Part shown: positions 11,898-52,791 of the stretch, one piece after another
Layout of the letters: every line of letters starts with the position of its first letter
Numbering within the stretch: position 1 is the stretch's first letter
Assembly (NCBI RefSeq): GCF_026427595.1
Contig: NZ_CP101527.1
Span: 3,529,001-3,593,000, forward strand
DNA: 64,000 nucleotides
From: Alkalimarinus sediminis
Lineage (GTDB): Bacteria > Pseudomonadota > Gammaproteobacteria > Pseudomonadales > Oleiphilaceae
Direction: 5' to 3'
Program-made: the position numbers and the translations under genes
Notes under the pieces: generated by a model
What the model was told of the DNA's origin: nothing
The model's input: the letters and a program-made list of their open reading frames with translations, nothing else
The model's database searches: none

Positions 11898-13007
11898 CTA
11901 GCGAGCGTTGATGTAGGCTTTTTCAGATATTTCATGATACTGAATAACACCATCACGGAACGCTTTGTAAGAGTCGTAAACTTTGGCGATTGCAGGGTCG
12001 CTATCGGCAATCTCTTTGATCGCATTTTCAGAGATCACCTGTAACTCATCCAATACATCTTTAGGGAATTTACGAATTTCAACGTTGTGCTTAGTGGTAA
12101 GCTCTATTAACGCTGAGTTATTGCGTGCGGTATATTCATCTAGCATATCTTGATTGGCTACACGCGCAGCATTCTCTACAATGGCTTGCAGGTCTGCTGG
12201 CAGCTTTTCGAACGCTTTTTTGTTTACCGTTATCTCTAGCGCTGTACCTGGCTCATGCCAACCTGGGAAATAGTAATATTTAGCCGCTTTATGAAGACCA
12301 AACGCTAGATCATTATAGGGGCCTACCCATTCAGTCGCATCAATAGTACCCGTTTGTAACGCAGTAAAGATCTCGCCGCCAGGTAAGTTAACGGGAGTGC
12401 CACCGGCTCTTTGCAGTACTTCACCACCCAAGCCTGGAATGCGCATTTTTAAGCCTTTTAGGTCATCAAGAGAGTTAATCTCTTTGTTAAACCAACCACC
12501 CATTTGTACGCCCGTGTTGCCACCTGCAAACGGTATTACACCAAAAGGCTCATAGGCTTCACGCCATAATTCAAGACCACCACCGTAGTGAATCCAACCA
12601 TTGTACTCTTGAGCATTCAAACCAAAAGGAACCGTTGAAAAAAACTGTGCCGCCGGAATTTTACCTTTCCAGTAATAAGCCGCACTATGGCCAACCTCTG
12701 CGGTACCTTGTGATACCGCATCGAATACTTCTAACGGTGGAACTAGCTCGCCACCGCCATAGACTTTAACCGTTAAACGCCCATTACTCATGCGGTTAAC
12801 TTCTTTAGCAAAACGCTCTGGTGCTTCACCTAACCCGGGGAAGTTCTTAGGCCAAGAGGTGACTAGCTTCCACTTAAATGTTTCTTGGGCGGCTGCCGGC
12901 TGTGCGGTTTGCTTGCTATCAGCTGCCTTATCTGACGGTGAACAAGCTGAAAGCACCGCCCCTAAAACGCTCGCTCCTACGACGGTGAATAGATGTCGTC
13001 TTTTCAT
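11898..13007 (-). CDS. TRAP transporter substrate-binding protein, TakP/2-oxoacid type
   Basis: A 369-residue DctP-superfamily periplasmic binding protein. The N-terminus has MKRRHLF then a hydrophobic stretch ending in lipobox LSAC (Cys22), so it is probably a lipoprotein; the Arg pair is Tat-like. The mature part begins with the WKLVTSWPKNFPG signature. It contains the GPYNDLAFGLHKAAKYYY and GWHEPG segments of the TakP subfamily, which binds 2-oxo acids or lactate. The DctP selectivity arginine lies in the GLKMRIPG region. The start has AGGAGAAAG just upstream. No dctQ or dctM membrane genes are adjacent, so it must work with a distant permease. Subfamily is confident; the ligand is inferred. 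Confidence 0.9.
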   Translation of the reverse strand: MKRRHLFTVVGASVLGAVLSACSPSDKAADSKQTAQPAAAQETFKWKLVTSWPKNFPGLGEAPERFAKEVNRMSNGRLTVKVYGGGELVPPLEVFDAVSQGTAEVGHSAAYYWKGKIPAAQFFSTVPFGLNAQEYNGWIHYGGGLELWREAYEPFGVIPFAGGNTGVQMGGWFNKEINSLDDLKGLKMRIPGLGGEVLQRAGGTPVNLPGGEIFTALQTGTIDATEWVGPYNDLAFGLHKAAKYYYFPGWHEPGTALEITVNKKAFEKLPADLQAIVENAARVANQDMLDEYTARNNSALIELTTKHNVEIRKFPKDVLDELQVISENAIKEIADSDPAIAKVYDSYKAFRDGVIQYHEISEKAYINAR

Positions 13008-29254: not shown

Positions 29255-29977
29255 TTAATCTGCAGCTGATAAGAAATTCACAATCCACTTAGCAATTAAC
29301 AGATGGTCTGTTTCATCAAATAGGGATGCCAAGCCTCCTTCAATAACATCGTCAGGAATTATGCCTCGGCGCATTTCCATTAGTTGACGACTATAACCCC
29401 GCATAAATTCAGGGTGACCTTGAAACCCCAATACACTATCACCCATTTGAAAGGCTGCATTCGGGCAGTAGTCACTACTAGCAATAACTGTTGCGTTAGC
29501 AGGCAGCTGTACCACTTGGTCTTGATGGCTTACGAGCAATGAATAGGACTCCACTTTTGGCTCCATCCATTCAGGGCTGGCCATGATATCGCTAGACTTA
29601 ACTCCAACGCCCCATCCCCCTTCATTTTTTTGGGCAATCCCACCTAACACGTGCGCCAACAACTGATGACCAAAGCAGATGCCCACCATTTTTTTATTCT
29701 GGCTAGCCAGGGTTCTGATATAGTTTCGTAACGTGCCGATCCATTCATCATTATCATAGGCGCTGCTCTTGCTGCCGGTAATAATATAGCCGTCACACTC
29801 ATCCACCTCTTCAGGATAAACCCCATCAATAACAGAATAGACCGCGAAGTCTATAGAAGGAGCAACCTGCATAAAGAGTGTCTGCATCATATGGGCATAA
29901 GAGACATACTGGGCACGCAACGAGTCATGTAGTTGATCACAATCGAGGATACCCAGTTTTAACTGTTGGCCGGTCAT
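29255..29977 (-). CDS. Class I glutamine amidotransferase, probable gamma-glutamyl hydrolase
   Basis: A 240-residue stand-alone class I GATase. The triad is complete: Cys101 in GICFGHQ, His188 and Glu190 in GFQGHPEF. No synthetase domain is fused and no ammonia-accepting partner is encoded nearby. Its ATG overlaps the alcohol dehydrogenase stop by 4 bp (ATGA), so the two are translationally coupled. As the last gene after a glutamine-synthetase-like ligase, aldehyde dehydrogenase and alcohol dehydrogenase, the simplest role is to hydrolyse a gamma-glutamyl amide at the end of the pathway, as PuuD does for gamma-glutamyl-GABA (PuuD belongs to a different branch of the fold). Family is sure; the role is inferred from context. 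Confidence 0.9.
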   Translation of the reverse strand: MTGQQLKLGILDCDQLHDSLRAQYVSYAHMMQTLFMQVAPSIDFAVYSVIDGVYPEEVDECDGYIITGSKSSAYDNDEWIGTLRNYIRTLASQNKKMVGICFGHQLLAHVLGGIAQKNEGGWGVGVKSSDIMASPEWMEPKVESYSLLVSHQDQVVQLPANATVIASSDYCPNAAFQMGDSVLGFQGHPEFMRGYSRQLMEMRRGIIPDDVIEGGLASLFDETDHLLIAKWIVNFLSAAD

Positions 29978-31173
29978 GCGACAAACCCTATACCAGCCAC
30001 GGCAGTGCTGCAGAGAATGCCGTAGTCTTCAGCTGTTAGTGGTATCGGGTTACCGCCTGCTGAAGGGTCGAGTGCGGCCATATCGCCTACTAGCTCACTG
30101 CACTCCGCTGTAATGCCTATCTCCGCTAGTGAGTGAGGAATATCAAGCCGCTGTCGTAGGTCTATAATCCAGGCCATAAAGCCATCAAAGGTGCTATCTT
30201 CAAGCCCAAGACAAGCCGCCACATGTTCGATTCTGCTCTCTATCGCCATACGGTTACGCATCAAGACATAGGGCAGCAAAATTGCATTTAATAGGCCATG
30301 ATGAGCATCAAACAGCGCACCTAACGGATGAGCTAGCGCATGGACGCCACCCAACCCTTTTTGAAATGCGGTAGCCCCCATTGATGAAGCGACCATCATA
30401 TGGCTGCGAGCAGTAAGGTTATTGCCATCTTCAACGGCAGGCACCAGCCACTCTTTAATCAATCGCATGCCTTCAAGAGCAATGCCATCGGCCATTGGGT
30501 GATACCCTGGCGCGCAATAGGCTTCGAGACAGTGCACAAATGCATCTAACCCCGTTGCGGCGGTTAGGTGAGCTGGCAGGCCCGTTACTAATTCAGGGTC
30601 AGCTAACACCACCTGAGGCATCATTTTAGGGTGGAAGATTATTCTCTTCACCTTTTGTTCTTCATCTAAAATAACCGATGCTCGTCCTACTTCAGAGCCA
30701 GTGCCCGATGTTGTCGGTACCGCTACGATTGGCGCAATACCGTCTGGGTCTGCGCGTAGCCAGTTGGTGCCTACGTCTTCCAAATCCCAGAGCGAATGGG
30801 TCTGGCCGCTCATCAGCGCAATCGCTTTACCGGCATCTAATGCGCTTCCACCCCCTAACGCGATGACACCGTCATGATTACCGGTTTTGTATGCCTCGAC
30901 ACCCGCTGCAATATTAGCTCCGCTAGGATTGGGTTTGACTTCGCTAAACAGTGCAATGTTTGCACCTTCGGCTTTGACAAACTCCATAGCTCTAGCGACA
31001 AACGGCTGTTCAACCAGACCTGCATCGATCACCAGTAGAGGGTTCCGAATCCCCAATGACTTGCACACAAAAGGGAGTTCTGCGAGTCGCCCCCCTCCCA
31101 TTCGAATGGTGGTTGGATAGTTCCAGTTGCCCTGAATACTATCCGGTGTTGTAAGGTCTAATGGTTGTTCCAT
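29974..31173 (-). CDS. Iron-containing (group III) alcohol dehydrogenase
   Basis: A 399-residue NAD(P)-dependent alcohol dehydrogenase. The nucleotide-binding GGGSALDAGKAIA and the PTTSGTGSE loop are present. Metal-site residues lie in TGLDAFVHCLEAYCAPGYHP and in GGVHALAHPLGALFDAHHGLLNA. I chose ATG at 31173 (GGTGAGAG ribosome site); a GTG 12 bp upstream is in frame. It lies 46 bp after the aldehyde dehydrogenase gene and overlaps the amidotransferase gene by 4 bp. In context it would oxidise the hydroxyl of a gamma-glutamylated amino-alcohol, or reduce the aldehyde in a salvage step. Family is sure; substrate unknown. Confidence 0.92.
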   Translation of the reverse strand: MEQPLDLTTPDSIQGNWNYPTTIRMGGGRLAELPFVCKSLGIRNPLLVIDAGLVEQPFVARAMEFVKAEGANIALFSEVKPNPSGANIAAGVEAYKTGNHDGVIALGGGSALDAGKAIALMSGQTHSLWDLEDVGTNWLRADPDGIAPIVAVPTTSGTGSEVGRASVILDEEQKVKRIIFHPKMMPQVVLADPELVTGLPAHLTAATGLDAFVHCLEAYCAPGYHPMADGIALEGMRLIKEWLVPAVEDGNNLTARSHMMVASSMGATAFQKGLGGVHALAHPLGALFDAHHGLLNAILLPYVLMRNRMAIESRIEHVAACLGLEDSTFDGFMAWIIDLRQRLDIPHSLAEIGITAECSELVGDMAALDPSAGGNPIPLTAEDYGILCSTAVAGIGFVA

Positions 31174-31219
31174 AACTGCTCTCACCTATACCTATTATTG
31201 TTATATTTTTTGCGTTTAA

Positions 31220-32602
31220 TTATATCCGTTTTAGATGAAATGACTTGGGACGCGTTAACTGTTGATAACCCAAAACCGACAACGCACATCCACGACCTGA
31301 CTGCTTAACGCCCACCCAAGGCAGTGCAGGGTCAAGATAGTCACAACGATTCATAAATACGGTACCGGTTTCTAATAGGTCACCAATCGCCAATGCCTTC
31401 TCTTCATCTTCTGTCCAAATTGAGGCCGTTAAACCATATTGGCTATCATTTATTAGCTTAACGGCTTCTTCATCACTTGCTACAGACATTACACCAATCA
31501 CCGGGCCAAAACTCTCTTCTGTCATGATATCCATCTGGTGATTAACATGGCTCAATATCTGGGGCGCAATATAGGCTGTGCCTTCTTCGCTGCGTTCGAA
31601 GTAATGTTGATCCACCCCTGTTCTGGCACCTTGGGCTACAGCGTCTTCAATTTGCTGTCTTACTGCGGCGGCAGCGTTTACACTAACCATCGGGCCAATC
31701 GTCGTTTCAGGGTCTAAAGGGTTCCCCAGTTTGTGTTCATAGACCTGATTGATCGCACCGGTAAGAAAACGCTCGTAAAGTGATTCGTGCACATACACCC
31801 GCTCAATGCCGCAACAGGACTGCCCTGAATTAAAGAAAGCGCCATCCAAGACATTCTCAATCGCATGGGCTAGATTGGCATCTTCCCGAATATAAGCCGC
31901 ATCTTTACCTCCAAGCTCTAGCGCTACCCCCTTAAAAGCGCCCGCCAAGCTCTTCTCAATTTGTTCACCACCTGAAACCGAACCTGTAAACGAGACAAAA
32001 TCAACACGCTCATGGTTAATGAGCGCTAAAGTACCTTCATGGTTTAAGTGGAGATACTGGAACACTTCATCAGGCAGCCCCGCTTGCTTGAACGCTTCGG
32101 CAAACCGTTCTGCACATAACAATGTCTGATTTGAGTGTTTAAGTATCACACTGTTACCCGCCATCAGAGCAGGTATTATAGAGTTAACAGCGGTTAGATA
32201 AGGGTAGTTCCATGGCGCGATTGTCACTACGACGCCGAGAGGTTCATGACGAATAAAACGATTAAAGCCTGCATGCTCCTCTATTAGTTCATCAGTCAGC
32301 GCTGTCTCTGCAACATCAATCATATAACGGGCACGCTCTTCAATACCACGCACTTCACCTGCCGCATATTGAATCGGCCTTCCCATTTGCAGGGTAATCT
32401 CTTCTGCTATGGGCTCTTGATTCTGCACAAAATAATCGATCGCTTTGTGACAAATAACGGCTCGTTCATGGAGTGCAACCTGCCTCCAACTTCGCTGTGC
32501 ATCTGCGGCACGCTCTACCGCTGCTGACGTTTCTTCAGCAGATGCCAATGCTCTTTCAGCAACTACGCGCCCATCAATGGGGGAATACAATGTGATATTC
32601 AT
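31220..32602 (-). CDS. NAD(P)-dependent aldehyde dehydrogenase
   Basis: A 460-residue aldehyde dehydrogenase, on the short side of the family. Catalytic residues: APWNYP (Asn of the oxyanion hole), ELGGKD (general base Glu) and Cys263 of GQSCC, which is followed by a second Cys. The C-terminus has MNRCDYLDPALPWVGVKQSG. It resembles the semialdehyde dehydrogenase branch. The ATG has AGGA upstream. It sits 96 bp after the glutamine-synthetase-like gene and before the alcohol dehydrogenase, all on the minus strand. In context it would convert a gamma-glutamylamino-aldehyde to the acid, as PuuC does in putrescine degradation. The exact substrate is inference. Confidence 0.92.
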   Translation of the reverse strand: MNITLYSPIDGRVVAERALASAEETSAAVERAADAQRSWRQVALHERAVICHKAIDYFVQNQEPIAEEITLQMGRPIQYAAGEVRGIEERARYMIDVAETALTDELIEEHAGFNRFIRHEPLGVVVTIAPWNYPYLTAVNSIIPALMAGNSVILKHSNQTLLCAERFAEAFKQAGLPDEVFQYLHLNHEGTLALINHERVDFVSFTGSVSGGEQIEKSLAGAFKGVALELGGKDAAYIREDANLAHAIENVLDGAFFNSGQSCCGIERVYVHESLYERFLTGAINQVYEHKLGNPLDPETTIGPMVSVNAAAAVRQQIEDAVAQGARTGVDQHYFERSEEGTAYIAPQILSHVNHQMDIMTEESFGPVIGVMSVASDEEAVKLINDSQYGLTASIWTEDEEKALAIGDLLETGTVFMNRCDYLDPALPWVGVKQSGRGCALSVLGYQQLTRPKSFHLKRI

Positions 32603-32698
32603 TTGCTGGTCCTGTTTTTGCTGTCATCAAAATAACTTATTGGGTTACACGCTAAGCGATCTTGCCCCATATCATCCCCTTGGGACGGCCACAGAAGA

Positions 32699-34066
32699 TC
32701 AGATAATTTCAAAATAACGGTCTAACTCCCAGTCAGAAATATGCTTTCTAAACTCTCGCTCTTCCCACTCTCGGGTAGCAGAGAAGTGGTCAACAAATGC
32801 ATCGCCGAAATAGTGTCGCGCTACCTGTGATGTTTTTAGTCTTTGGGCTGCATCCCATAATGTGTGAGGGAGCTGTAGGTGAGGCGGAAAGCGGGTTTCG
32901 TAAGCACTCCCCTTCACTAACGGCTCAGGCTCAACTCTATTCTCAACGCCCCATAAACCAGATGCAATAACAGCCGCTTGAATAATATAGGGGTTGGCAT
33001 CAGCAGCACCTATTCGGTATTCAATACGCTGCGCCTGCTCTGAACCTGGGATAATACGAATAGCACAGGTACGATTGTCTATACCTGCACTGGCCTCGGT
33101 AGGCGCCCAGAAACCGGGAATCAATCGTCGATAGGCATTAATGGTTGGCGCGATCATGGCGAGTAGTTCAGGCATTAGTTTTTGTTGGCCCGCGTAGAAG
33201 TGACGCATCGTATCGCTAATATTATCTGGCTTACTCTCATCGTAAAACATCGATGCGCCGCTTAAATCCCTGACCGAGAGGTGAATATGCCCACTTTGCC
33301 CTGGGTACTCTGGCGACCACTTAGCCATAAATGTCGCCATTTTGCCCTCTTTCTGCATGGCAACTTTAGTGAATGTTTTAAATAGCGCAGCTTTATCGGC
33401 AGAGGGTAACGCATCATCGTGTGCAATTGCCGCCTCTAACACTCCAGGGCCGGTCTCTTCATGTAAGCCTTCGATGGGGATATCCATCTGGCTGCAGAGT
33501 TTCAGTAAGTTCTGATAGGTTTGTGACTCGGCACTATTGCGAATGACCGAATAACCAAATTCTGCAGGCCCCAGTGACCGAAGCCCTTGGTAATGCTTTT
33601 CACGAATGCTTTCCGGGGTTTCATTAAATACGAAAAACTCATACTCAAAGCCCGTTTCAATTTGCATGCCTAGAGATTTAGCCTGTTGTAAAACCTTACG
33701 CAAAACGCCTCTAGGGCATATTGCTTCGGCCTCGCCCACAAACTCTGCGAGAAAGAGCACATTATTATGTTCTAACGGCAACTCTCGACAGCTTTCAGGT
33801 ATTATTCTGGCCGCTGCATCAGGGTAGCCGGTGTGCCATCCGGTATATTGTGTGTTGTCATAGAGTTGGTCTCGTACATCCCAACCTAACACCACATCAC
33901 AAAAGCCAAAGTCATTTTCAAGCGATGATAAGAACTTTTCTTTAGACATATATTTGCCGCGCATCACGCCATCAATGTCAAACATGCCCACTTTTACATG
34001 ATTCAATCCTCGCGCTTCAATAAGCTCTCGAGCATCTGCGATACTTTGCACATCTTTTGCTTCCAT
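32699..34066 (-). CDS. Glutamine-synthetase-like gamma-glutamylamide ligase (PuuA/GlnA-like type III)
   Basis: A 455-residue ATP-dependent ligase of the glutamine synthetase fold. It has the beta-grasp N-domain (VKVGMFDIDGVMRGK), metal-binding EYEF and HEETGPGVLEAA, SGHIHLSV, PGFWAPTEASAGIDNR (ATP and Glu binding) and RIEYRIGAADANPY. Compared with true GlnA it lacks the adenylylation-loop Tyr context, and the arginine/ammonia-site motifs are altered, as in PuuA, IpuC and other enzymes that glutamylate amines. It is the first gene of the four-gene operon; the ATG has GAGGA upstream. It would attach Glu to a primary amine or amino-alcohol. A nitrogen-assimilating role is unlikely. The amine is unknown. 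Confidence 0.9.
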   Translation of the reverse strand: MEAKDVQSIADARELIEARGLNHVKVGMFDIDGVMRGKYMSKEKFLSSLENDFGFCDVVLGWDVRDQLYDNTQYTGWHTGYPDAAARIIPESCRELPLEHNNVLFLAEFVGEAEAICPRGVLRKVLQQAKSLGMQIETGFEYEFFVFNETPESIREKHYQGLRSLGPAEFGYSVIRNSAESQTYQNLLKLCSQMDIPIEGLHEETGPGVLEAAIAHDDALPSADKAALFKTFTKVAMQKEGKMATFMAKWSPEYPGQSGHIHLSVRDLSGASMFYDESKPDNISDTMRHFYAGQQKLMPELLAMIAPTINAYRRLIPGFWAPTEASAGIDNRTCAIRIIPGSEQAQRIEYRIGAADANPYIIQAAVIASGLWGVENRVEPEPLVKGSAYETRFPPHLQLPHTLWDAAQRLKTSQVARHYFGDAFVDHFSATREWEEREFRKHISDWELDRYFEII

Positions 34067-34166: not shown

Positions 34167-34775
34167 TTAACCCGCGCCAAAAATCATCAATAGCGAAACC
34201 GTCAACATCCAAGCAAAAAAACTAGTCTCAGCCGCCCGTTGCACCACCCCTCTCACCGCTTTCAAGCGAGGTAATATCAACAAGACAAGGCTCAACAATA
34301 TCACCGAACCACTTAAGATTAAATAGAGGCTCATAAGTGGTTTGGCCGAATGGTCGACAGCCTCTCGGCCTAATAAGATTAACCCAACCCCTGCCCCCAG
34401 ATACTCAAATAAACCGGCTATATTATGTATCTGGTTACTAACTGACCCTCCTATAGGTGCTCCTTGGTCACATGGAAATATAGCGGCAACCAAATACCCA
34501 ACACCCACAAGACCTATCAACCCCCAAATAAATGGGCTTTGTGGTAACAGTGTCACCACCGAATGAGCAAGTATAACAAAGACAATTGTCATAACACCCA
34601 GTGGCAGAAAGTAGAACCTAGAGACCGCTTTTTGATAGCGGCTTCCTGTTGCGCCTAACTCACTCAACGTATTCAGACGTGATGAATAACCTGCCGTCTT
34701 ACGGGCAAAATAGGCAGGCATAACACACGCGAAGAGAGACGTTATAACCCCTAGCACCCCAAGTAACGATAACAC
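34167..34775 (-). CDS. DUF998 integral membrane protein
   Basis: A 202-residue inner-membrane protein with about six hydrophobic segments. Family marks are LSELGATGSRYQ after helix 1 and FPCDQGAPIGGSVSNQIHNIAGL in the centre. DUF998 proteins have no established function to my knowledge. It starts with GTG at 34775, with GAGGAG about 10 nt upstream. It lies 100 bp upstream of the ligase gene on the same strand and could be the first gene of that operon, though hairpins in the gap argue for partial separation. Family sure, role unknown. Confidence 0.85.
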   Translation of the reverse strand: MLSLLGVLGVITSLFACVMPAYFARKTAGYSSRLNTLSELGATGSRYQKAVSRFYFLPLGVMTIVFVILAHSVVTLLPQSPFIWGLIGLVGVGYLVAAIFPCDQGAPIGGSVSNQIHNIAGLFEYLGAGVGLILLGREAVDHSAKPLMSLYLILSGSVILLSLVLLILPRLKAVRGVVQRAAETSFFAWMLTVSLLMIFGAG

Positions 34776-37313: not shown

Positions 37314-37330
37314 CCGATGTTCGACGACCT

Positions 37331-37384
37331 GTTTGATGGATTTATATTTTTAAGCCCGTTTGATGGCGTTATAATGCTAAGCCC
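37331..37384 (+). repeat. 27-bp tandem duplication in a 5' leader
   Basis: Two abutting 27-bp copies (37331-37357, 37358-37384), each beginning GTTTGATGG and ending TAAGCCC, are identical at 22 of 27 positions. The second copy contains TATAAT. The duplication sits in the untranslated leader before the ART-like gene. Confidence 0.75.
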
Positions 37385-37418
37385 TGTGATGACTCTATCT
37401 TTTGGAACCCTATATCCT

Positions 37419-37985
37419 ATGACAAATATTGCAACTCCAACCTATTTACAAGATGCCAATCAATTGCTGTCTGCCGATGGATTTAAATTAACTGGGTCGT
37501 GGTATCACGGCACGGCGTCAGGCTTAACCGATGCCATTTTAGAAAAGGGTCTAATAGGCTCTGGGGACGCTGAACTTAACAAAAAAACCAAAAGCGCAAT
37601 GGCGACGATTGGTAATCGTTACACCGAGCAAAAAGAGCCTGTATTTTTAACTCAAAGCAAAGAGCTGGCTTATTATTGGGCAAACGAGAAAGCAGAACTG
37701 CGTAAAACGCGATTTGGCAGCGATGAGACCCCCGTTGTATTTGAGCTTTCGCTACCAAGCGAGTTAGCCGACAAAGTAAAAACCGATGTAGGGGCTGCCA
37801 CGATGTTAATATCTGGCAACGATCCATACATAGCGTACCTTCAGGCATTGTATTCAGACAACAACATAGAGCTACCTGAACTAGACCCGGCCAATATAGA
37901 CCGCATGGCCTATCTCAATTTACTAGGCATGGCATATTGCAGCGTTGATATCCCCGCAGAACACATTATCGTTTTGGCGGGCTAG
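37419..37985 (+). CDS. Possible ADP-ribosyltransferase-fold protein
   Basis: A 188-residue protein I do not recognise by name. I chose ATG at 37419; the same frame is open back to 37317, but promoters overlap that stretch. After a 24-residue leader comes W-Y-H-G-T-A then AILEKGLIG, the pattern at the start of the H-Y-E class of ADP-ribosyltransferase folds (KptA, DarT, PARP-like). A VFLTQSKELAYYWANE segment about 50 residues later matches the usual v-y-l-T...A-x-x-Y-A helix, and a C-terminal I-P-A-E-H-I could supply the glutamate. No signal peptide. Standing alone between ald and a sensor gene, with no visible antitoxin. Fold call is moderate; toxin or regulatory role is only a hypothesis. 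Confidence 0.6.
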   Translation: MTNIATPTYLQDANQLLSADGFKLTGSWYHGTASGLTDAILEKGLIGSGDAELNKKTKSAMATIGNRYTEQKEPVFLTQSKELAYYWANEKAELRKTRFGSDETPVVFELSLPSELADKVKTDVGAATMLISGNDPYIAYLQALYSDNNIELPELDPANIDRMAYLNLLGMAYCSVDIPAEHIIVLAG

Positions 37986-42987: not shown

Positions 42988-43379
42988 CCTAACCAGGTTA
43001 GACGTTAATATCTAAGCTCATAAATATGATCAGCCAATAAAACACCTTCTCAAGCATGATTCTGATGCGCTTGATCCAGCCACTCCCCTTACTGAACACT
43101 TTTCACCAACCTAAATGCCGTACGAGTAGCCACCTCATTACAAGTATCGATAAAATCCAAAAAAAACAGACTATTTTACGCGTACAGACTACTTTCCTCT
43201 TCTGCATCCGGCAGCTTTTTATTACACTTGAGTCTGACTAAAATTAGATCAATATGACTTTAGCAATATTTCATGTTAGAGTAATTGCTCTATATAAGGT
43301 TTTCGCATGTTAGTATGAGTGCAACCAAGACAAGACATTGTGTTATCAAACACAGGGATTTAATAAAAGGGTTATAACG
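42988..43379. other. Intergenic region, 392 bp
   Basis: Spacer between the binding-protein gene and the iron alcohol dehydrogenase gene. A small palindrome CTAACC-a-GGTTAG lies at 42989-43001 just past the stop. CATGTTAG occurs twice (43272-43279, 43307-43314), about 100 and 65 bp before the next start, with TATATAAG between them as a possible -10. A short open frame at 43056-43241 has no ribosome site and looks random. No RNA gene seen. Confidence 0.4.
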
Positions 43380-44588
43380 ATGCTATTTTCACTTCAGGTT
43401 AAAGGTTATCAAGGTTTAATGGGGGCGATGAAATTCGCAGCGAAAGTCGTTCCAATGCCTAAACCAACATTATTCACAGGTATAGACTCTTCACTTGAAC
43501 TTTGCGATGCCATTGGTCAAATGGGTACCAAGAAAATCCTTATTGTGACCGATGCTATGCTCGTAAAGCTCGGAGTACTCGATAAAATCCAAAAGAAGTT
43601 AACCGAAAACAACATAGAATTTGTCATTTATGATGGTGTTTTACCTGACCCAACTTATGATCAGGTAGAAAATGGTCTTAACGCATACAAGCAAAACAAG
43701 TGCGAAGCGATTTTGGCTGTTGGTGGTGGCTCTCCGATTGATGCCGCAAAAGTGATTGCTGCACGTGCAACCAATAACCGTGCAATTAAAAAGCTAGCCG
43801 GTATGTTTAAAGTGTGGAGTGCACCCGCACCACTATTTGCTATTCCAACAACTGCAGGTACAGGCTCAGAAGTAACAATCGCCGCGGTTGTATCTGACCC
43901 TGTAACTCACCAGAAAACGCCACTTATCGACCCTAAGCTAGTACCGATGATGGCTGCACTAGACGCAGGCCTAATGACAGGCTTGCCAGCACCAGTTACT
44001 TCTGCCACAGGTATGGACGCACTAACCCATGCAGTAGAAGCGTTCATCTCTAAGAATGCATCTGCTGAGACAGACGGTTACGCGATTGCTGCCACTCGTC
44101 TTATTATGGAGAACCTGTCTACCGCAGTTAAAAAAGGCGATAACATTGAAGCCCGCCAGAATATGGCATTGGCTTCTTACTATGCAGGTTTGGCCTTTAC
44201 TAAAGCGAGCTTAGGCTATGTTCATGCCATCTCACATAACTTTGGTGCAAAATACTCAACCCCTCACGGGTTAGGTAATGCAATTGTTCTTCCTTATGTT
44301 CTTGACTACTCAAAAGCTGAGATCAATGAGCGCCTGGCTGAACTAGCTAAAGTCAGCGGCCTCAAAACTGGCAAAGAGAGCAACTCAGAACTAGCGCAGA
44401 AGTTTATCGACAAGATCCGCGCGATGCTTAAAGAGTTCAATATTCCTGAGAAACTAGAAGCGCTTAAGCCTGAAGATATTCCAGAAATCGCAAGGCTTGC
44501 ACTGAAAGAAGCGCATTATAACTACCCTGTACCTAAATATATGGATCAGGAAACATGCGAAGAGTTTATCAAGCAGATGGTCGCTTAG
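43380..44588 (+). CDS. Iron-containing alcohol dehydrogenase
   Basis: A 402-residue group III alcohol dehydrogenase, distinct from the enzyme at 29974. Cofactor loops are AVGGGSPIDAAKVIAA and PTTAGTGSEVT. Metal-site segments are SATGMDALTHAVEAFISKNAS and GYVHAISHNFGAKYSTPHGLGNA. A 30-residue leader (LFSLQVKGYQGLMGAMKFAAKV) precedes the catalytic fold. ATG at 43380 has AAAAGGG upstream; the frame is open 14 codons further, without a ribosome site. It is transcribed alone and ends in a strong terminator. Likely oxidises or reduces a short or medium primary alcohol or lactaldehyde; this cannot be settled by reading. Confidence 0.92.
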   Translation: MLFSLQVKGYQGLMGAMKFAAKVVPMPKPTLFTGIDSSLELCDAIGQMGTKKILIVTDAMLVKLGVLDKIQKKLTENNIEFVIYDGVLPDPTYDQVENGLNAYKQNKCEAILAVGGGSPIDAAKVIAARATNNRAIKKLAGMFKVWSAPAPLFAIPTTAGTGSEVTIAAVVSDPVTHQKTPLIDPKLVPMMAALDAGLMTGLPAPVTSATGMDALTHAVEAFISKNASAETDGYAIAATRLIMENLSTAVKKGDNIEARQNMALASYYAGLAFTKASLGYVHAISHNFGAKYSTPHGLGNAIVLPYVLDYSKAEINERLAELAKVSGLKTGKESNSELAQKFIDKIRAMLKEFNIPEKLEALKPEDIPEIARLALKEAHYNYPVPKYMDQETCEEFIKQMVA

Positions 44589-46574: not shown

Positions 46575-48122
46575 TTAACCTCTCGGTTTCTGAGACTCAG
46601 ACTCCAGCTTAAGCCCGCTGATCGCAAACTTGACCCACTTTTGTAACCCTTTACCAAACAGCGCTTCAATAAACTGGCTAAAGAGCTGATATTTTTTTCG
46701 GGTGTAGGGGTACCAGTTGGCTTCTATTTTGGCACTCTGAGTGTCGACTAAAAGCGCTTTGGATTGAGTCATCCCTCGCAACCCTTCAGCCCCTTTTACT
46801 CGCCCAAAGCCGCTCTGCTTGGTTCCACCAAATGGTAGTGCGGGGTTGCCTTCGGTCAGCATTACATTATTGATAGATACAGCGCCCACCTCTAACGCTC
46901 TGGCAACTCGGTCAGCACGTTTTAGGTCTTTACTCCACACACTGGCACTTAGGCCGAAATCAGTGTTATTTGACTCATCAATGACCGCTTGTTCAGAGGT
47001 AAATGCGGAAATTGTCAGTACCGGACCAAACGTCTCTTGGCTTAAAACAGTCATATCGGTAGTGGCATCTTCGATAATGGTGGGGAGGTAGAAAGGCATG
47101 TCGTCAGACAACATCTCTCCGCCAGCAATCACGTTTGCACCTGCTGATTTGGCTTCATCAACCTGCTTGCGAATAATATCTAGCTGGAAGTCTGCGGTAA
47201 TACCGCCAATATCTGCATCACCGTCATCTCCTGAGTTGAGCACTAACTTGGCACACTCTTCTTTCAGCTTCTCAACAAATGGCTGATAGATACTTTTATG
47301 CACATAAACTCGTTCAACAGAGGTACACGACTGGCCCGCATTGGTCATCGCCCCCCACAAACATCCGGCTACCGTGCGTTCAATATTAACGTCCTCAAAG
47401 ACTATCATTTGATCTTTACCGCCAAGCTCAAGCTCAACAGGTATCAGGTAATTAGCCGCCTGACTGAGGATCTTTTTGCCAGTACGAGCACTGCCTGTGA
47501 AGAATATTTTTGCTGGTCGCTGATCAATCAGCTTTTGTGCCGTTAAACCAGTACCATAAACAACATTCACACACTGCCTAAAGAGGGGTGATGCCGACAT
47601 CATCTCTTCTATTAAGCCGCTTAGAGGCGTTATTTCAGATGGTTTAAATACAACCGAGTTACCCGCCGCCAGCGCAGTCAGGATAGACACCATTGCAATG
47701 TTAAACGGGTAGTTCCAAGGTGCGATAATCAACACCACACCTAGAGCCTCATGATAGATTTTGGATTTCTTACCCATCAATGCAAGCGGTGTGTGGGCTT
47801 TTTCGTCTGCTAGAATCTTAGGCGCATTCGCAATTAGCCAATCGGCATAATCCAAGACTCCCATCGCTTCTGATACCAAGGCATCGGTGCGACTTTTGCC
47901 AGTCTCAAGTACCACCTTATCGACAATGAGTTCACGGTTTTCGTAGATCGCATCTCGTACTTTTTTGAGTGCTTCTACCCGCTCTTTAACAGTGGTTTTC
48001 TTTAAGTCCTGAAAACCCTGTCGCGCTGTTTGAAACGCCTCTTTTACCTGCTCGTCGCTGCTTTCATTAATTTCGTAAAGCGTTTCTAGTGTCACGCTGT
48101 TTTTAACTGCAATGGCATTCAT
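46575..48122 (-). CDS. Aldehyde dehydrogenase, fatty/coniferyl-aldehyde type
   Basis: A 515-residue NAD(P)-dependent aldehyde dehydrogenase. It has APWNYPFN, LELGGKD and catalytic Cys266 in GQSCTSVE, then QETFGPVL and LPFGGTKQSGFGR. A C-terminal extension of about 60 residues begins at YPYTRKKYQLF and continues with an amphipathic/hydrophobic stretch, as in the ALDH3-like fatty-aldehyde and coniferyl-aldehyde enzymes that associate with membranes. Its ATG overlaps the preceding stop by 4 bp (ATGA). Last gene of the FadL-GMC operon, where it would oxidise the aldehyde made by the GMC enzyme. Family sure; substrate inferred. Confidence 0.93.
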   Translation of the reverse strand: MNAIAVKNSVTLETLYEINESSDEQVKEAFQTARQGFQDLKKTTVKERVEALKKVRDAIYENRELIVDKVVLETGKSRTDALVSEAMGVLDYADWLIANAPKILADEKAHTPLALMGKKSKIYHEALGVVLIIAPWNYPFNIAMVSILTALAAGNSVVFKPSEITPLSGLIEEMMSASPLFRQCVNVVYGTGLTAQKLIDQRPAKIFFTGSARTGKKILSQAANYLIPVELELGGKDQMIVFEDVNIERTVAGCLWGAMTNAGQSCTSVERVYVHKSIYQPFVEKLKEECAKLVLNSGDDGDADIGGITADFQLDIIRKQVDEAKSAGANVIAGGEMLSDDMPFYLPTIIEDATTDMTVLSQETFGPVLTISAFTSEQAVIDESNNTDFGLSASVWSKDLKRADRVARALEVGAVSINNVMLTEGNPALPFGGTKQSGFGRVKGAEGLRGMTQSKALLVDTQSAKIEANWYPYTRKKYQLFSQFIEALFGKGLQKWVKFAISGLKLESESQKPRG

Positions 48123-48541
48123 CGCTCTACACTCCCGTTTGGTTCAACCATCTCACACCTAACTTGATACCCAATAGCTTCATGTACTAAAGGGCCTTGA
48201 TAAAAATCACTGGTGTTATTTGAATAGTAGAGGCTAAATACAACACCTTTAATGCCGACGTTTAACAGCCTAATCAAACCACCTATAGGCTCAGGGAAGA
48301 CCGACTCTTTATCCAATAACTTCAAGATGCCTTTAATAAAGAATTCTGGCGCGACACTAAAAACCTTCATTAACAATTTAAAGTCTTTTACATCTGCTTC
48401 AGGCGTAGGGCCCATAACCTCATCAATATGGTCGACACAGCCGGTTTCAGAAAAAGAAGGCATGCCGTAACCACCAGGAATGACGAGATCCCCAAGTTTT
48501 TTCAATCCACGAATTTCACGTTGAGATAAATAGAGAGACAT
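48119..48541 (-). CDS. Small GMC partner protein, gluconate-dehydrogenase-subunit-3-like
   Basis: A 140-residue protein between the GMC oxidoreductase and the aldehyde dehydrogenase. I chose ATG at 48541, which overlaps the GMC stop as TAATG; the frame is open 21 codons upstream inside the GMC gene, which is unlikely to be used. The segment LGDLVIPGGYGMPSFSETGCVDHIDEVM resembles the start of gluconate 2-dehydrogenase subunit 3 proteins, which partner GMC flavoproteins. It ends with a YQGPLVHEAIGYQVR-type tail also seen near such subunits. No signal peptide. It probably assists folding, export or membrane association of the GMC protein. Family call is moderate; coupling to the GMC gene is seen directly. 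Confidence 0.75.
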   Translation of the reverse strand: MSLYLSQREIRGLKKLGDLVIPGGYGMPSFSETGCVDHIDEVMGPTPEADVKDFKLLMKVFSVAPEFFIKGILKLLDKESVFPEPIGGLIRLLNVGIKGVVFSLYYSNNTSDFYQGPLVHEAIGYQVRCEMVEPNGSVER

Positions 48542-49983
48542 TAGAGTTGTACCTCCACAACAGGTGATTCTTTTTGTACTTGAGTCGAGGATGACACCCC
48601 GCACTCTGCCAAAATATGTTCACTGGCTTTATGAGCCAGAGCCATGATACTTAACGCTGGGTTAATACCCGGTGCTGAAGGGAAGATTGATGAATCCGCA
48701 ATAAACAAGTTGGGGTGATCATGAACCTGAAAACGCTCATTTACCACCGAGTGCTGGCCATCTTTACCCAGAGTACAACCACCCATAAGGTGCAGACCAA
48801 TTTTAATGGGTGATTTCATCACCTCTCTCGCGCCCAATGTATTAAACAACGTTTCTACCACTTGCAGGCCTGCATTAGCACGCTGCCAATCAGCATCGGC
48901 CATAGTCTTTTTAATCTTCAAACGGCCTGTTTTATCAATATCAATGGTGCCCGCAGTTGCATCTCTTACCGCCACTTCTATACAGGCCATATTGCGATAC
49001 TTCTGCATAAAGCGTTGGTGATCGATACCAAAACCTGGCTTGAGTAGTGATACCGCAATCGGCCCAGCGAATACGTTTTCTAACTTAAAGCCCTGCTGAC
49101 GAAATCGAGCATCTTGAGATTTAACCGACTGGAAGGCTCCTTTGTGGGAATCAACAATCTCATCAAACAGTGCAATATTCATAAACTGAGGGTGACAGTT
49201 AAAGTTATTCCCCAACGCAGGCAGTTTAGATTTAAAGCCAGACTTTAATAACATTTGAGTAGAGCCTAATGCACCACCTGCCACAATACAGCGACGACCA
49301 TGCACCTGTCTGGCTGTGCCATTTTGCTGGCCATAAACCGTAACGAGGTTAGTACCATGAATAATTTGCGATACGTTAAACTGGGTTTCAACCGTCAAGC
49401 CATGCTGTCTGGCCTTCTTAATAAACGTCACTAGTGAACTTTGCTTGGACTCTCTTGGGCAGCCACCTAAGCAAACAATACAATCGTTGCCGCTGCCGCA
49501 ATCACTTTGGCCTCTGCGTAAAGGCGCCCACTCCATGCCGCACTTTTCAAACCCTTCGACATAAAGCTCGGCATTGCGGTTCCAGTCGCACCTTTCCATC
49601 GTATGAAGAGAGAGATGAGATTCCACTTCATCATAGTGGCGGGCCATGGCATCAGTAGAGAAAAAGTCGACCCCTGTGCGAGCGCGCCAATCATCAAGCG
49701 CGTTATCATCAAAGCGATCTAACAGACACTGGTTAATAATACTGCCACCGCCTAATACTTTACCGCGAAGAAACAACAGACCAGCATCTGTGGTGGTATC
49801 CATGCCACCACTCCACATCAACGAAGCGTTGGCAGACATTTCATTGCTGGGGAATGTGTTTGGCGTAAACTCCTTACCTGCCTCCAGCATTAGCACCCGA
49901 GCACCGGCCTTGCATAAGTTATAAGCCAGTACGCCTCCTGATGGGCCTGAGCCTATAATCACGAAATCATAAATATCTGCCAC
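48541..49983 (-). CDS. GMC-family FAD oxidoreductase
   Basis: A 480-residue flavoprotein alcohol oxidase/dehydrogenase. The FAD-binding GSGPSGG is at residues 11-17, with RGKVLGGGSIINQ after it. The C-terminal GMC block has GGCTLG, LFIADSSIFPSAPGINPALSIMALA. A cysteine-rich insert, CGSGNDCIVCLGGC (near 160-175), resembles the Cys cluster of long-chain alcohol oxidases and could hold an iron-sulfur cluster or disulfides. No signal peptide. It sits after the PLP-fold gene (33 bp) and is coupled to the small partner protein. Substrate is likely a hydrophobic alcohol, given the FadL and aldehyde dehydrogenase neighbours. Confidence 0.9.
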   Translation of the reverse strand: MADIYDFVIIGSGPSGGVLAYNLCKAGARVLMLEAGKEFTPNTFPSNEMSANASLMWSGGMDTTTDAGLLFLRGKVLGGGSIINQCLLDRFDDNALDDWRARTGVDFFSTDAMARHYDEVESHLSLHTMERCDWNRNAELYVEGFEKCGMEWAPLRRGQSDCGSGNDCIVCLGGCPRESKQSSLVTFIKKARQHGLTVETQFNVSQIIHGTNLVTVYGQQNGTARQVHGRRCIVAGGALGSTQMLLKSGFKSKLPALGNNFNCHPQFMNIALFDEIVDSHKGAFQSVKSQDARFRQQGFKLENVFAGPIAVSLLKPGFGIDHQRFMQKYRNMACIEVAVRDATAGTIDIDKTGRLKIKKTMADADWQRANAGLQVVETLFNTLGAREVMKSPIKIGLHLMGGCTLGKDGQHSVVNERFQVHDHPNLFIADSSIFPSAPGINPALSIMALAHKASEHILAECGVSSSTQVQKESPVVEVQL

Positions 49984-50016
49984 GTGTTATCCCTCTCTCA
50001 CTATGAAGTTTAAGGT

Positions 50017-51222
50017 TTATATGAAAGACTTCCCCTGACCACGATAGGTCAGGCATCTATCAACAACTTCACCATTTTTGATCAAAACCAACTCATTAAA
50101 GCGTTCACACAGCTCGCCCGCTTTAGCGTGCCGGAACAAGACCGGATCACCATGCGCAAGTGCATTCACGCTGTTTTTATACTTTTTATTCGATAGGCTT
50201 TTCAGGGGCGTCTGAACTTCCCCTGCGCCTTCGTTATCATCCAATGTCAGCCCTTCAGGTAAGTAAGGCTGGGGGGCTTTTTCGCTGCCAACACCACCGG
50301 AGGCAATATAGCCGCCGCCGCTACAGGTAACGTAACCACTTCCTGATTGGCGCGATACTTCCAACGCAAACCCTGCCGCTGGCAAGTAACTAAAACCATG
50401 GTAGTAATCAAACAGATGAGGGCTATAAAAACCTGACCCTACTGCCAACTCGGTAACCGATGGATCTTGCTGGGTCGAGTCGATACTGCCGGTACCACCG
50501 CCATTAACAAACCGTAGTTGAGCGCCAGCCTGCTCAAGGGCACGGACAATGGCTACTCGTCGACGGGTGAGCATAGGTATCGAAAGCCGTTTCAACCACG
50601 GTACAGCTCGGTTTTGCAGCTCTTTACCTGGGACACTTTCACCCACTCCAGCTATCTGGGCTTCATACCCCATAACACCTTCTAGTTTGAGGGATGGTCT
50701 ATTTACAATCTCACGATACAGCTCTACCGCTTGCTCTGGCGTGTTAATCGGAGATCGACGAACACCAAAATAGATACCTGGAAAGCGCGTAGACATATCA
50801 ACATCCATACAAACCGGCATCACCACACCAACCTGTTGCGCAATATTGGCAATTAACTCAACATGAGCTCTTGAGTCCACCATAAGCACAATAGTTGCAG
50901 CCTTTAACGCTGCCTTACAAGCCGATTCGATAGCTGTTTTCTGCATAGATGGGTAGGCAACCAACAAGTCATCAAGCCCCTGCTCGGCCAAGAATGCGGC
51001 TTCATCAGGGTGAAAACACATCACCCCTTGAAAGCGAGGTGAATAGTCTAATAGGCGCTTGATAATATCGACACTGCGTAATGACTTCGACACTACCCGC
51101 ACCGGCATATTCCCTGCTCGGTCGAGTATTGCTCTCGCATTCTGCTCGAGGTAGTCGAGATTGACATAGGCCAGCGGTAGTGGCTGGCCCTGTAAACTAT
51201 TTTTGTAATCCTGATAGTTCAT
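50017..51222 (-). CDS. PLP-dependent alanine-racemase-fold protein (amino acid deaminase/aldolase type)
   Basis: A 401-residue PLP enzyme of fold type III. It starts with NLDYLEQNARAIL, and the Schiff-base lysine is Lys46 in VVSKSLRS. The D-threonine aldolase-like barrel continues through GVMGYEAQIAGVGE and FVNGGGTGSI. The C-terminal domain carries CSGGGYIASGGVGSEKAPQPYLP, and a metal-site His in AHGDPVLFRHAKAGELCE, as in D-serine dehydratase/D-threonine aldolase relatives. Its presence in a hydrophobic-alcohol operon is unexpected; annotated relatives are often called amino acid deaminase/aldolase. It follows the porin gene by 45 bp. The reaction here is not known. Confidence 0.85.
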   Translation of the reverse strand: MNYQDYKNSLQGQPLPLAYVNLDYLEQNARAILDRAGNMPVRVVSKSLRSVDIIKRLLDYSPRFQGVMCFHPDEAAFLAEQGLDDLLVAYPSMQKTAIESACKAALKAATIVLMVDSRAHVELIANIAQQVGVVMPVCMDVDMSTRFPGIYFGVRRSPINTPEQAVELYREIVNRPSLKLEGVMGYEAQIAGVGESVPGKELQNRAVPWLKRLSIPMLTRRRVAIVRALEQAGAQLRFVNGGGTGSIDSTQQDPSVTELAVGSGFYSPHLFDYYHGFSYLPAAGFALEVSRQSGSGYVTCSGGGYIASGGVGSEKAPQPYLPEGLTLDDNEGAGEVQTPLKSLSNKKYKNSVNALAHGDPVLFRHAKAGELCERFNELVLIKNGEVVDRCLTYRGQGKSFI

Positions 51223-51266
51223 TATTGTCCTAAAGGTAATCGTCTGGAAATAGAGTGAGTATTTAT

Positions 51267-52706
51267 CTACTCACCAAACTTCCATCTTAAACCAACCGCC
51301 AATGATGTGTACTGGGTTTCGACCTTGGCTTGCGTGGTAGCCGCATCGCCAAAGATGGATGCATCGCCCTGACTAACATTACGGTCAAACGAAAGCGTAT
51401 GCTGCAAACCTGCATCAACCACAAGGGTTTCGCTAGGCTCATAACTAAAGCCAACCGAAAGCGCCTTATAATCATCAAACGCAAAATCGATAGATGTGGT
51501 CTGATCAGGTATTGGAGTCTTTTCAAATGCTAAACCAGCGCGCAGAGTCCACTGAGGGTTTAGCTGAAAGCCACCCCCTAACGCCACACGCCAGGAGTCA
51601 TTCCAACTCTGAGGTGTGCTCAACACATCACCGGTATCTTCCAGTACGATATCAATCGACTTAAAGCGGCTCCAGTTAGTCCAGTTGGCATCTGCTTGCA
51701 CATACCAACGCTCATTAATTTGGTGGAAGCCACTCAACGACAACGTTTCAGGCGTCACTAACTCTACCGTCGCGGCAGTGGCATGAGTGGTTAGGTTTGG
51801 ATCAAGCGCCGATAGGACAGCCTCTGCATTGGCAGGAATAGTAAAGTTGCCACTGCCCTGCAGGGTATGCTCTATCTTACTTCTAAAGTTCATTCCGACA
51901 CGGGTATCTTCACTAAACTCATAGAGTACGCCTGCGGTAAAACCATAATCAGTATCATGCCCTTTTACCTTGAAGTAACCATCGCTGCTATAACTGCCAG
52001 GTGCACCCACACCGATATCTGCACAGCTATTACCCCCGGTTAACCCTAAGCTTTCTGCACCGCTACAATAACCCGCAACGTTAATACCCTGCTCTAGATT
52101 GGCAGAAACACGCTGCATATTGATACCGCCACCCAATGAGAGTTGATCCGTCAGTTTTAAACTGGCCATAAAGCCGACATTAATGCCGGTAATTTCAGAC
52201 TCAAGACCGAAATAACGTCCAACAAAATCTCGGTTAAACTCTGTACCACTGGCATAAGGGGCGTTAATTGATACACCAAATGCCAGTTGATCATATTGAG
52301 GGAAGGCAAGATAGATACTTGGTAGCCCAAAAGCATTGTCAACGGAAGGAGAACCGTCACCTTCTAAGGGCACAGTGGTATAACTGCTCAAACTGGTCAT
52401 TTGGTCGAGGCTAGTGCCCGTGGCGCTTACATCGGTAGAGGTGGTCAACACACTCACATTAACCACCAGCTCTGACTGTTTAATTCGGCTTAGCCCGGCA
52501 GGGTTATAAAAGGCCGTTGAGGCGTCTTCTGCTTCAGCCGCACCACCAGAGAATGCATCACCTAAACGCTTGGCACTCTGCTCATCAACATAGTAGCCCT
52601 GGGCCGACAACTGACTACTAACCATTAGCGCACTTAACGTTAGCACAGCAGGGGTAACACCCACTTTTTTATTTGATAATGGTTCTGACTTTTTATTTTT
52701 ATTCAT
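51267..52706 (-). CDS. FadL-family outer-membrane transporter
   Basis: A 479-residue outer-membrane barrel of the FadL/TodX/OmpP1 family, which carries fatty acids or hydrocarbons across the outer membrane. A signal peptide ends SAQ; the mature N-terminus runs GYYVDEQSAKRLGDAFSGGA then STAFYNPAGLS, the FadL hatch region. The C-terminal strand ends SLAVGLRWKF. I chose ATG at 52706, 8 nt after GGAG; a GTG three codons upstream is in frame but too close to it. First structural gene of the operon after the TetR gene. The substrate is probably a hydrophobic alcohol or related compound, from its neighbours. Confidence 0.92.
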   Translation of the reverse strand: MNKNKKSEPLSNKKVGVTPAVLTLSALMVSSQLSAQGYYVDEQSAKRLGDAFSGGAAEAEDASTAFYNPAGLSRIKQSELVVNVSVLTTSTDVSATGTSLDQMTSLSSYTTVPLEGDGSPSVDNAFGLPSIYLAFPQYDQLAFGVSINAPYASGTEFNRDFVGRYFGLESEITGINVGFMASLKLTDQLSLGGGINMQRVSANLEQGINVAGYCSGAESLGLTGGNSCADIGVGAPGSYSSDGYFKVKGHDTDYGFTAGVLYEFSEDTRVGMNFRSKIEHTLQGSGNFTIPANAEAVLSALDPNLTTHATAATVELVTPETLSLSGFHQINERWYVQADANWTNWSRFKSIDIVLEDTGDVLSTPQSWNDSWRVALGGGFQLNPQWTLRAGLAFEKTPIPDQTTSIDFAFDDYKALSVGFSYEPSETLVVDAGLQHTLSFDRNVSQGDASIFGDAATTQAKVETQYTSLAVGLRWKFGE

Positions 52707-52791
52707 GACACACACTCCAGTTACATGGTAACAATAGTATTTCTACTGCTTAAGAAACCTGATGAATGCCTAATATTGTGCTCGATAGATC

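Follow-up and report, generated by a model that had tools for sequence, protein, structure and literature searches.

A route for ethanolamine catabolism that begins with glutamylation of the amine, continues with oxidation of the alcohol and then of the aldehyde, and ends with hydrolysis of the amide has been proposed in three publications (PMC6529630, PMC10132767, and PMC9397018). In Streptomyces, a ligase mutant and an assay established that GlnA4 makes gamma-glutamylethanolamide, the later steps being predicted (PMC6529630). In Phaeobacter, proteomics revealed the induction of an operon with the same enzymes, and binding proteins of the Csal_0678 type, called EtoX, bind ethanolamine; the enzyme steps are again predicted (PMC10132767). 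For Chromohalobacter, a table lists the families PF00120, PF00465, PF00171, and PF05013 (PMC9397018). The subject here is an operon in a 64,000-nucleotide stretch of the genome of Alkalimarinus sediminis (contig NZ_CP101527.1, positions 3,529,001 to 3,593,000), called the window below. Encoded on the minus strand, it comprises, in order of transcription, a glutamine synthetase-like ligase, an aldehyde dehydrogenase (ALDH), an iron-containing alcohol dehydrogenase (Fe-ADH), and a stand-alone class I amidotransferase. It is a conserved catabolic operon of an already published kind, and the pathway we propose for it is not new. What the analysis adds is an extension of ethanolamine-type gamma-glutamylation, a route to nitrogen and carbon, to additional marine and soil bacteria. 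The route is little annotated, its genes being labeled in databases as glutamine synthetase, aldehyde dehydrogenase, and GMP synthase-like.

How closely does the locus resemble the described systems? With those of Phaeobacter sp. MED193 (ETAGA, GAADDH, GETADH, and GGAH; PMC10132767) and Chromohalobacter salexigens (PMC9397018) it shares PF00120, PF00171, and PF00465 proteins and a final gamma-glutamyl hydrolase. Its hydrolase belongs to PF00117, unlike the PF05013 protein in the review's Chromohalobacter column (PMC9397018), and, unlike both systems, it has no adjacent EtoVWX TRAP transporter or RpiR regulator and differs in its ligase subclade signature. The glnA4 cluster of Streptomyces coelicolor, SCO1610-1615, likewise combines a ligase, an ALDH, an alcohol-oxidizing dehydrogenase, and an amidotransferase-like gene without a dedicated permease, but it includes a regulator, and its orf2 is labeled a short-chain dehydrogenase in the legend (PMC6529630). 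SCO1615 is described there both as a glutamine amidotransferase and as a member of the formylglutamate amidohydrolase family (PMC6529630).

Two further pathways share parts of this plan. The PuuABCD putrescine pathway of Escherichia coli glutamylates its substrate, oxidizes it to an aldehyde, employs an ALDH, and hydrolyzes the amide. It uses the amine oxidase PuuB, whereas the window operon has an Fe-ADH and no oxidase gene. The window proteins also reach only 161 of the 650 bits set for PuuA and 253.5 of the 850 set for PuuC, and the amidotransferase, unlike PuuD, has no Peptidase_C26 (PF07722) match at E 0.001. The Ipu pathway, encoded by the ipuC cluster of Paenarthrobacter aurescens TC1, also pairs a glutamine synthetase-like ligase with an amidotransferase, but the ligases are 37% identical, and that cluster has P450/ferredoxin and short-chain dehydrogenase genes rather than an Fe-ADH and an adjoining ALDH.

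Gene order and its conservation

A sequence-only reading of this DNA had described the gene order, a 4-bp overlap of the last two genes, and the lack of an adjacent PuuB-like oxidase or transporter. Open reading frame coordinates bear out the layout: the ligase and ALDH genes are 96 bp apart, the ALDH and Fe-ADH genes 34 bp, and the Fe-ADH and amidotransferase genes share 4 bp (29974-29977). By the same coordinates and Pfam, the four-gene operon contains neither a PuuB-like oxidase nor a transporter, and its upstream neighbor encodes a DUF998 membrane-type protein. All four operon proteins score above the curated cut-offs of their Pfam families.

In the pathway we propose, the ligase would spend ATP on linking the amine to glutamate through the gamma-carboxyl group, the Fe-ADH would oxidize the hydroxyl to an aldehyde, the ALDH would make gamma-glutamylglycine, and the amidotransferase would hydrolyze this to glycine and glutamate. 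Glutamate would therefore be recycled, and a free aminoaldehyde would never appear. All the reactions assigned to this organism, like the identity of the substrate, are inferred from gene content, order, and conservation, the loss of the ammonia-site Glu of glutamine synthetase, and the link of related loci to ethanolamine-type transporters. The glutamylate-oxidize-hydrolyze scheme, already put forward in the sequence-only reading for an amino-alcohol such as ethanolamine, gains support from the same chemistry having been published for ethanolamine (PMC6529630, PMC10132767, and PMC9397018) and from the transporters described below. That the operon acts on a primary amino-alcohol via gamma-glutamylation is very probable; that the amino-alcohol is ethanolamine we hold with moderate confidence.

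Is the arrangement conserved? Ligase loci, 135 in number, were gathered: the window, 40 from relatives and the class, 80 from GTDB genomes (the top-ranking 80 of 574 hits), with a further 14 (of 47 rows) from the order. Three relatives of about 30% identity and class-search rows G324, G216, and G177 were left out. Once 5 duplicates, 3 loci with less than 55% identity, and 33 whose flanks were short had been removed, the set came to 94. An ALDH is within reach in 85 of these and an Fe-ADH in 81, both dehydrogenases being found at 76, so that the conservation check suggested by the earlier reading came out in its favor. The window-type amidotransferase is present in 53 loci, and 51 have the complete set of four. 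Chance alone would not account for the arrangement, since the order ligase, ALDH, Fe-ADH, amidotransferase is strictly colinear in 44 of the 94 loci. In a first set of 84, the amidotransferase gene lies divergently upstream of the ligase in 7. The ligase family itself is patchy, occurring in 21 of 58 close relatives (E 1e-60), 23 of 369 genomes of the class (E 1e-90), and 45 of 390 of the order (E 1e-180), counts that include the own genome where listed. One locus among those with short flanks, L055, a member of the window's subclade, lacks an ALDH within the 3.8 kb of downstream sequence. In two of the 94 loci, the place of the Fe-ADH after the ligase and ALDH is taken by a DAO-type FAD oxidoreductase (L138:12799-14190 and L146:12454-13746), as if the oxidation step had been swapped along with the substrate.

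Part of the family is linked to ethanolamine-type transporters. An Eat-type (amino-acid-type) permease gene lies near the ligase in 23 of the 94 loci and an EtoX-type TRAP binding protein gene at 9, with one or the other at 31; in L116 and L102 the transporter match is split across frames. Three Eat members were scanned against the TIGR00908 "ethanolamine permease" model (cut-off 381.75 bits), two scoring above it (544 and 388.5) and one just below (353.1). The TRAP binding protein of L064 matches PDB entries 4uab and 4xf5 (E 1.6e-145), which we take to be Csal_0678 of Chromohalobacter. An Fe-ADH is present in 30 of the 31 transporter-linked loci, and in trees the window's clade is nested beside the transporter-linked lineages L064, L067, L094, and L095. 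The host genome has no EutB (the E. coli control was positive), and no ethanolamine transporter is linked to the window operon. An orphan TRAP solute-binding protein (PF03480; window 11898-13007), encoded beside a UvrD-type helicase, was weighed as an ethanolamine binder and set aside because its identity to the EtoX-type query is only 26%, a level common among unrelated TRAP proteins.

The dehydrogenases and the hydrolase

Neither of the two dehydrogenases reaches an NCBIfam equivalog cut-off (for the ALDH, among the best 25 of 45 matches). In the ALDH, C263 is kept in 95 and E229 in all 98 of the aligned sequences. The full Cys-His-Glu triad noted earlier in the amidotransferase also proved conserved: among 57 aligned homologues, C101 is invariant, and H188 and E190 are each kept in 56. 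Of the solved structures, gamma-glutamyl peptidase 1 comes closest (E 5.9e-23), a likeness fitting the predicted hydrolysis of gamma-glutamylglycine. The window operon has this PF00117 protein in place of the PF05013 gamma-glutamylglycine amidohydrolase of the Chromohalobacter type. PF05013 proteins occur at 5 of the 94 loci, never together with the window-type amidotransferase; one such locus, L154, also has a second PF00117 type. The exchange is a swap of a known type, since hydrolases of both kinds appear in published work.

The ligase and its substrate

Could the ligase be an ordinary glutamine synthetase paralogue after all? It shares its Pfam family with glutamine synthetase and, in an alignment to E. 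coli GlnA, retains the columns E129, E131, E212, E220, H269, R321, R339, and R359, which we take to be metal, ATP, and glutamate residues. GlnA Asp50 aligns with D70 of the ligase, and Tyr179, presumably an ammonium-site residue, aligns with F170, which residue 169 adjoins. Against these likenesses, the protein scores under half of the curated cut-offs for type I (GlnA, 202.9 of 429.15 bits) and type III (GlnIII, 192 of 470), and the column of GlnA Glu327 is occupied by W320, comparable to the Trp of IpuC and the Tyr of PuuA. The host genome, a single contig of 4.23 Mb encoding three PF00120 proteins including this one, also has its own distinct GlnA (456.7 bits). A paralogue of this ordinary sort is therefore highly improbable, and the refuting outcome named in the sequence-only reading, a ligase that makes glutamine from ammonia, is disfavored as far as sequence can tell.

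Which amine, then, does it use? The ligase falls in the same family as the Halomonadaceae ligases encoded beside EtoX-type genes, yet in a separate subclade. A quick maximum-likelihood tree places 21 sequences, including the window's, in one group (Shimodaira-Hasegawa-like approximate likelihood ratio support 91) beside lineages with linked transporters, and a FastTree run agrees on this subclade. The family is split into a branch tied to ethanolamine importers and the window's branch, which has no importers and a changed ligase signature. Several observations count against the ethanolamine pathway in this branch. W327 is replaced in all 22 subclade ligases (V in 15, A in 3, L in 3, and I in 1), whereas Trp stands there in 112 of 115 amine ligases outside the subclade; position 169 carries E or D in 21 of the 22 and in 0 of the 115. 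Transporter linkage is seen in 0 of 14 subclade loci versus 31 of 80 others (Fisher p 0.004, uncorrected for phylogeny). In the 16 genomes with only the window-type ligase, an Eat query (E 1e-20) gave nothing (controls 7/7 positive) and no EtoX orthologue was found (controls 4/4 positive), two of them (G669 and G289) having only TRAP relatives of 23-26% identity. Three genomes of one genus (G022, G027, and G032) carry two ligases, one transporter-linked and set in the full operon, the other of the window type and without an adjoining Fe-ADH. The hydrolysis step has gaps of its own: none of three hydrolase types is nearby in 20 of the 76 loci with both dehydrogenases, and no recognizable amidotransferase homologue was found in 7 of 19 genomes checked (E 1e-25).

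One explanation is that the four-step chemistry is unchanged and the subclade ligase has moved to another primary amino-alcohol, larger or with a second positive charge, that is intracellular or enters via an unknown carrier. The signature at positions 327 and 169, joined by an acidic position 180 in 19 of 22, would suit such a move, as would the placement of acidic residue 169 next to F170, the missing Eat and EtoX orthologues, and the retention of the Fe-ADH in 12 of 14 subclade loci. The occurrence of both ligase types within one genus hints, from sequence, at two substrates. Yet Eat-linked L094 also lacks W327 (it has I) and Eat-linked L148 has V64; such changes are therefore compatible with ethanolamine transport. 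S. coelicolor runs the ethanolamine route without a dedicated permease (PMC6529630), the counts are not independent of phylogeny, and three of the 16 genomes (G688, G705, and G047) are under 90% complete, at 81-87%. The subclade facts allow a changed substrate without demonstrating one, because permease-linked L094 is also without the Trp. We regard such a move as unlikely, though a serious contender. Somewhat more doubtful is the fuller proposal that the subclade was re-tooled for a different, as yet unnamed amino-alcohol, perhaps made inside the cell; it would draw on loss of the Trp of ethanolamine, isopropylamine, and putrescine ligases, the acidic residue by the amine site, the kept Fe-ADH, and the lack of a known importer. 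Among the literature listed for other gamma-glutamylated amino-alcohols, no obvious alternative pathway stood out.

A different possibility is that the ligase glutamylates another amine, such as a diamine or alkylamine, the Fe-ADH being unrelated or secondary. Relatives at 51-57% identity adjoin aminotransferase, peptidase, and ABC genes or a GMC oxidoreductase, and 2 of the 94 loci have the DAO-type enzymes mentioned above; the wider family is therefore not confined to a single substrate. A second amine could, moreover, be bound by acidic residues 169 and 180. Set against this are the Fe-ADH in most loci of the family and of the subclade, its overlap with the amidotransferase gene in the window, and the absence of a PuuB-type oxidase from the operon, and we judge it improbable. 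Ethanolamine remains the substrate we prefer.

Genes near subclade ligases were considered as substrate clues and set aside. In five genomes of one genus (L206-L210), a FapA-like gene (PF03961) directly precedes the window-type ligase; L208 has a flagellin gene downstream, and other nearby genes in that genus are signaling or flagellar. Limited to one genus, these indicate no substrate, nor do the lipoyl-enzyme genes upstream in L053 and L054.

Other features of the window

The features of the locus are collected in Table 1. The DUF998 gene, on the same strand 100 bp upstream of the ligase, precedes the ligase in all five examined genomes of the window's genus and at none of the remaining loci. 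Its product could have an accessory or transport role. Promoter and terminator scans gave counts not above those of shuffles (7 versus a mean of 10.4, and 8 versus 5.7, standard deviation 3.0), and we therefore claim no transcription unit from them.

Table 1. Genes of the operon and its upstream neighbor, in window coordinates
Feature	Position	Strand	Details
Glutamine synthetase-like gamma-glutamyl-amine ligase, probable gamma-glutamylethanolamide (or other amino-alcohol) synthetase	32699..34066	-	455 aa; PF00120, 309 bits
Aldehyde dehydrogenase, probable gamma-glutamyl-aminoacetaldehyde dehydrogenase	31220..32602	-	460 aa; PF00171, 442 bits
Iron-containing alcohol dehydrogenase, probable gamma-glutamylethanolamide dehydrogenase	29974..31185	-	403 aa, GTG start; PF00465, 161 bits, and PF25137, 135 bits
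Stand-alone class I amidotransferase, probable gamma-glutamylglycine hydrolase	29255..29977	-	240 aa; PF00117, 49 bits
DUF998 membrane-type protein; its gene may be the first of the unit	34167..34775	-	PF06197

Elsewhere in the window, a second iron-containing alcohol dehydrogenase is encoded 9 kb from the operon (43338-44588). Clustered on the minus strand at 46575-52715 are genes for an ALDH, a GMC oxidoreductase, an alanine-racemase-N-type protein, and a FadL/TodX outer-membrane protein, in what looks like another alcohol-oxidation unit. A 222-aa protein encoded at 37317-37985 has no Pfam match at E 1e-5, and its middle part resembles, by eye only, an ADP-ribosyltransferase-type fold.

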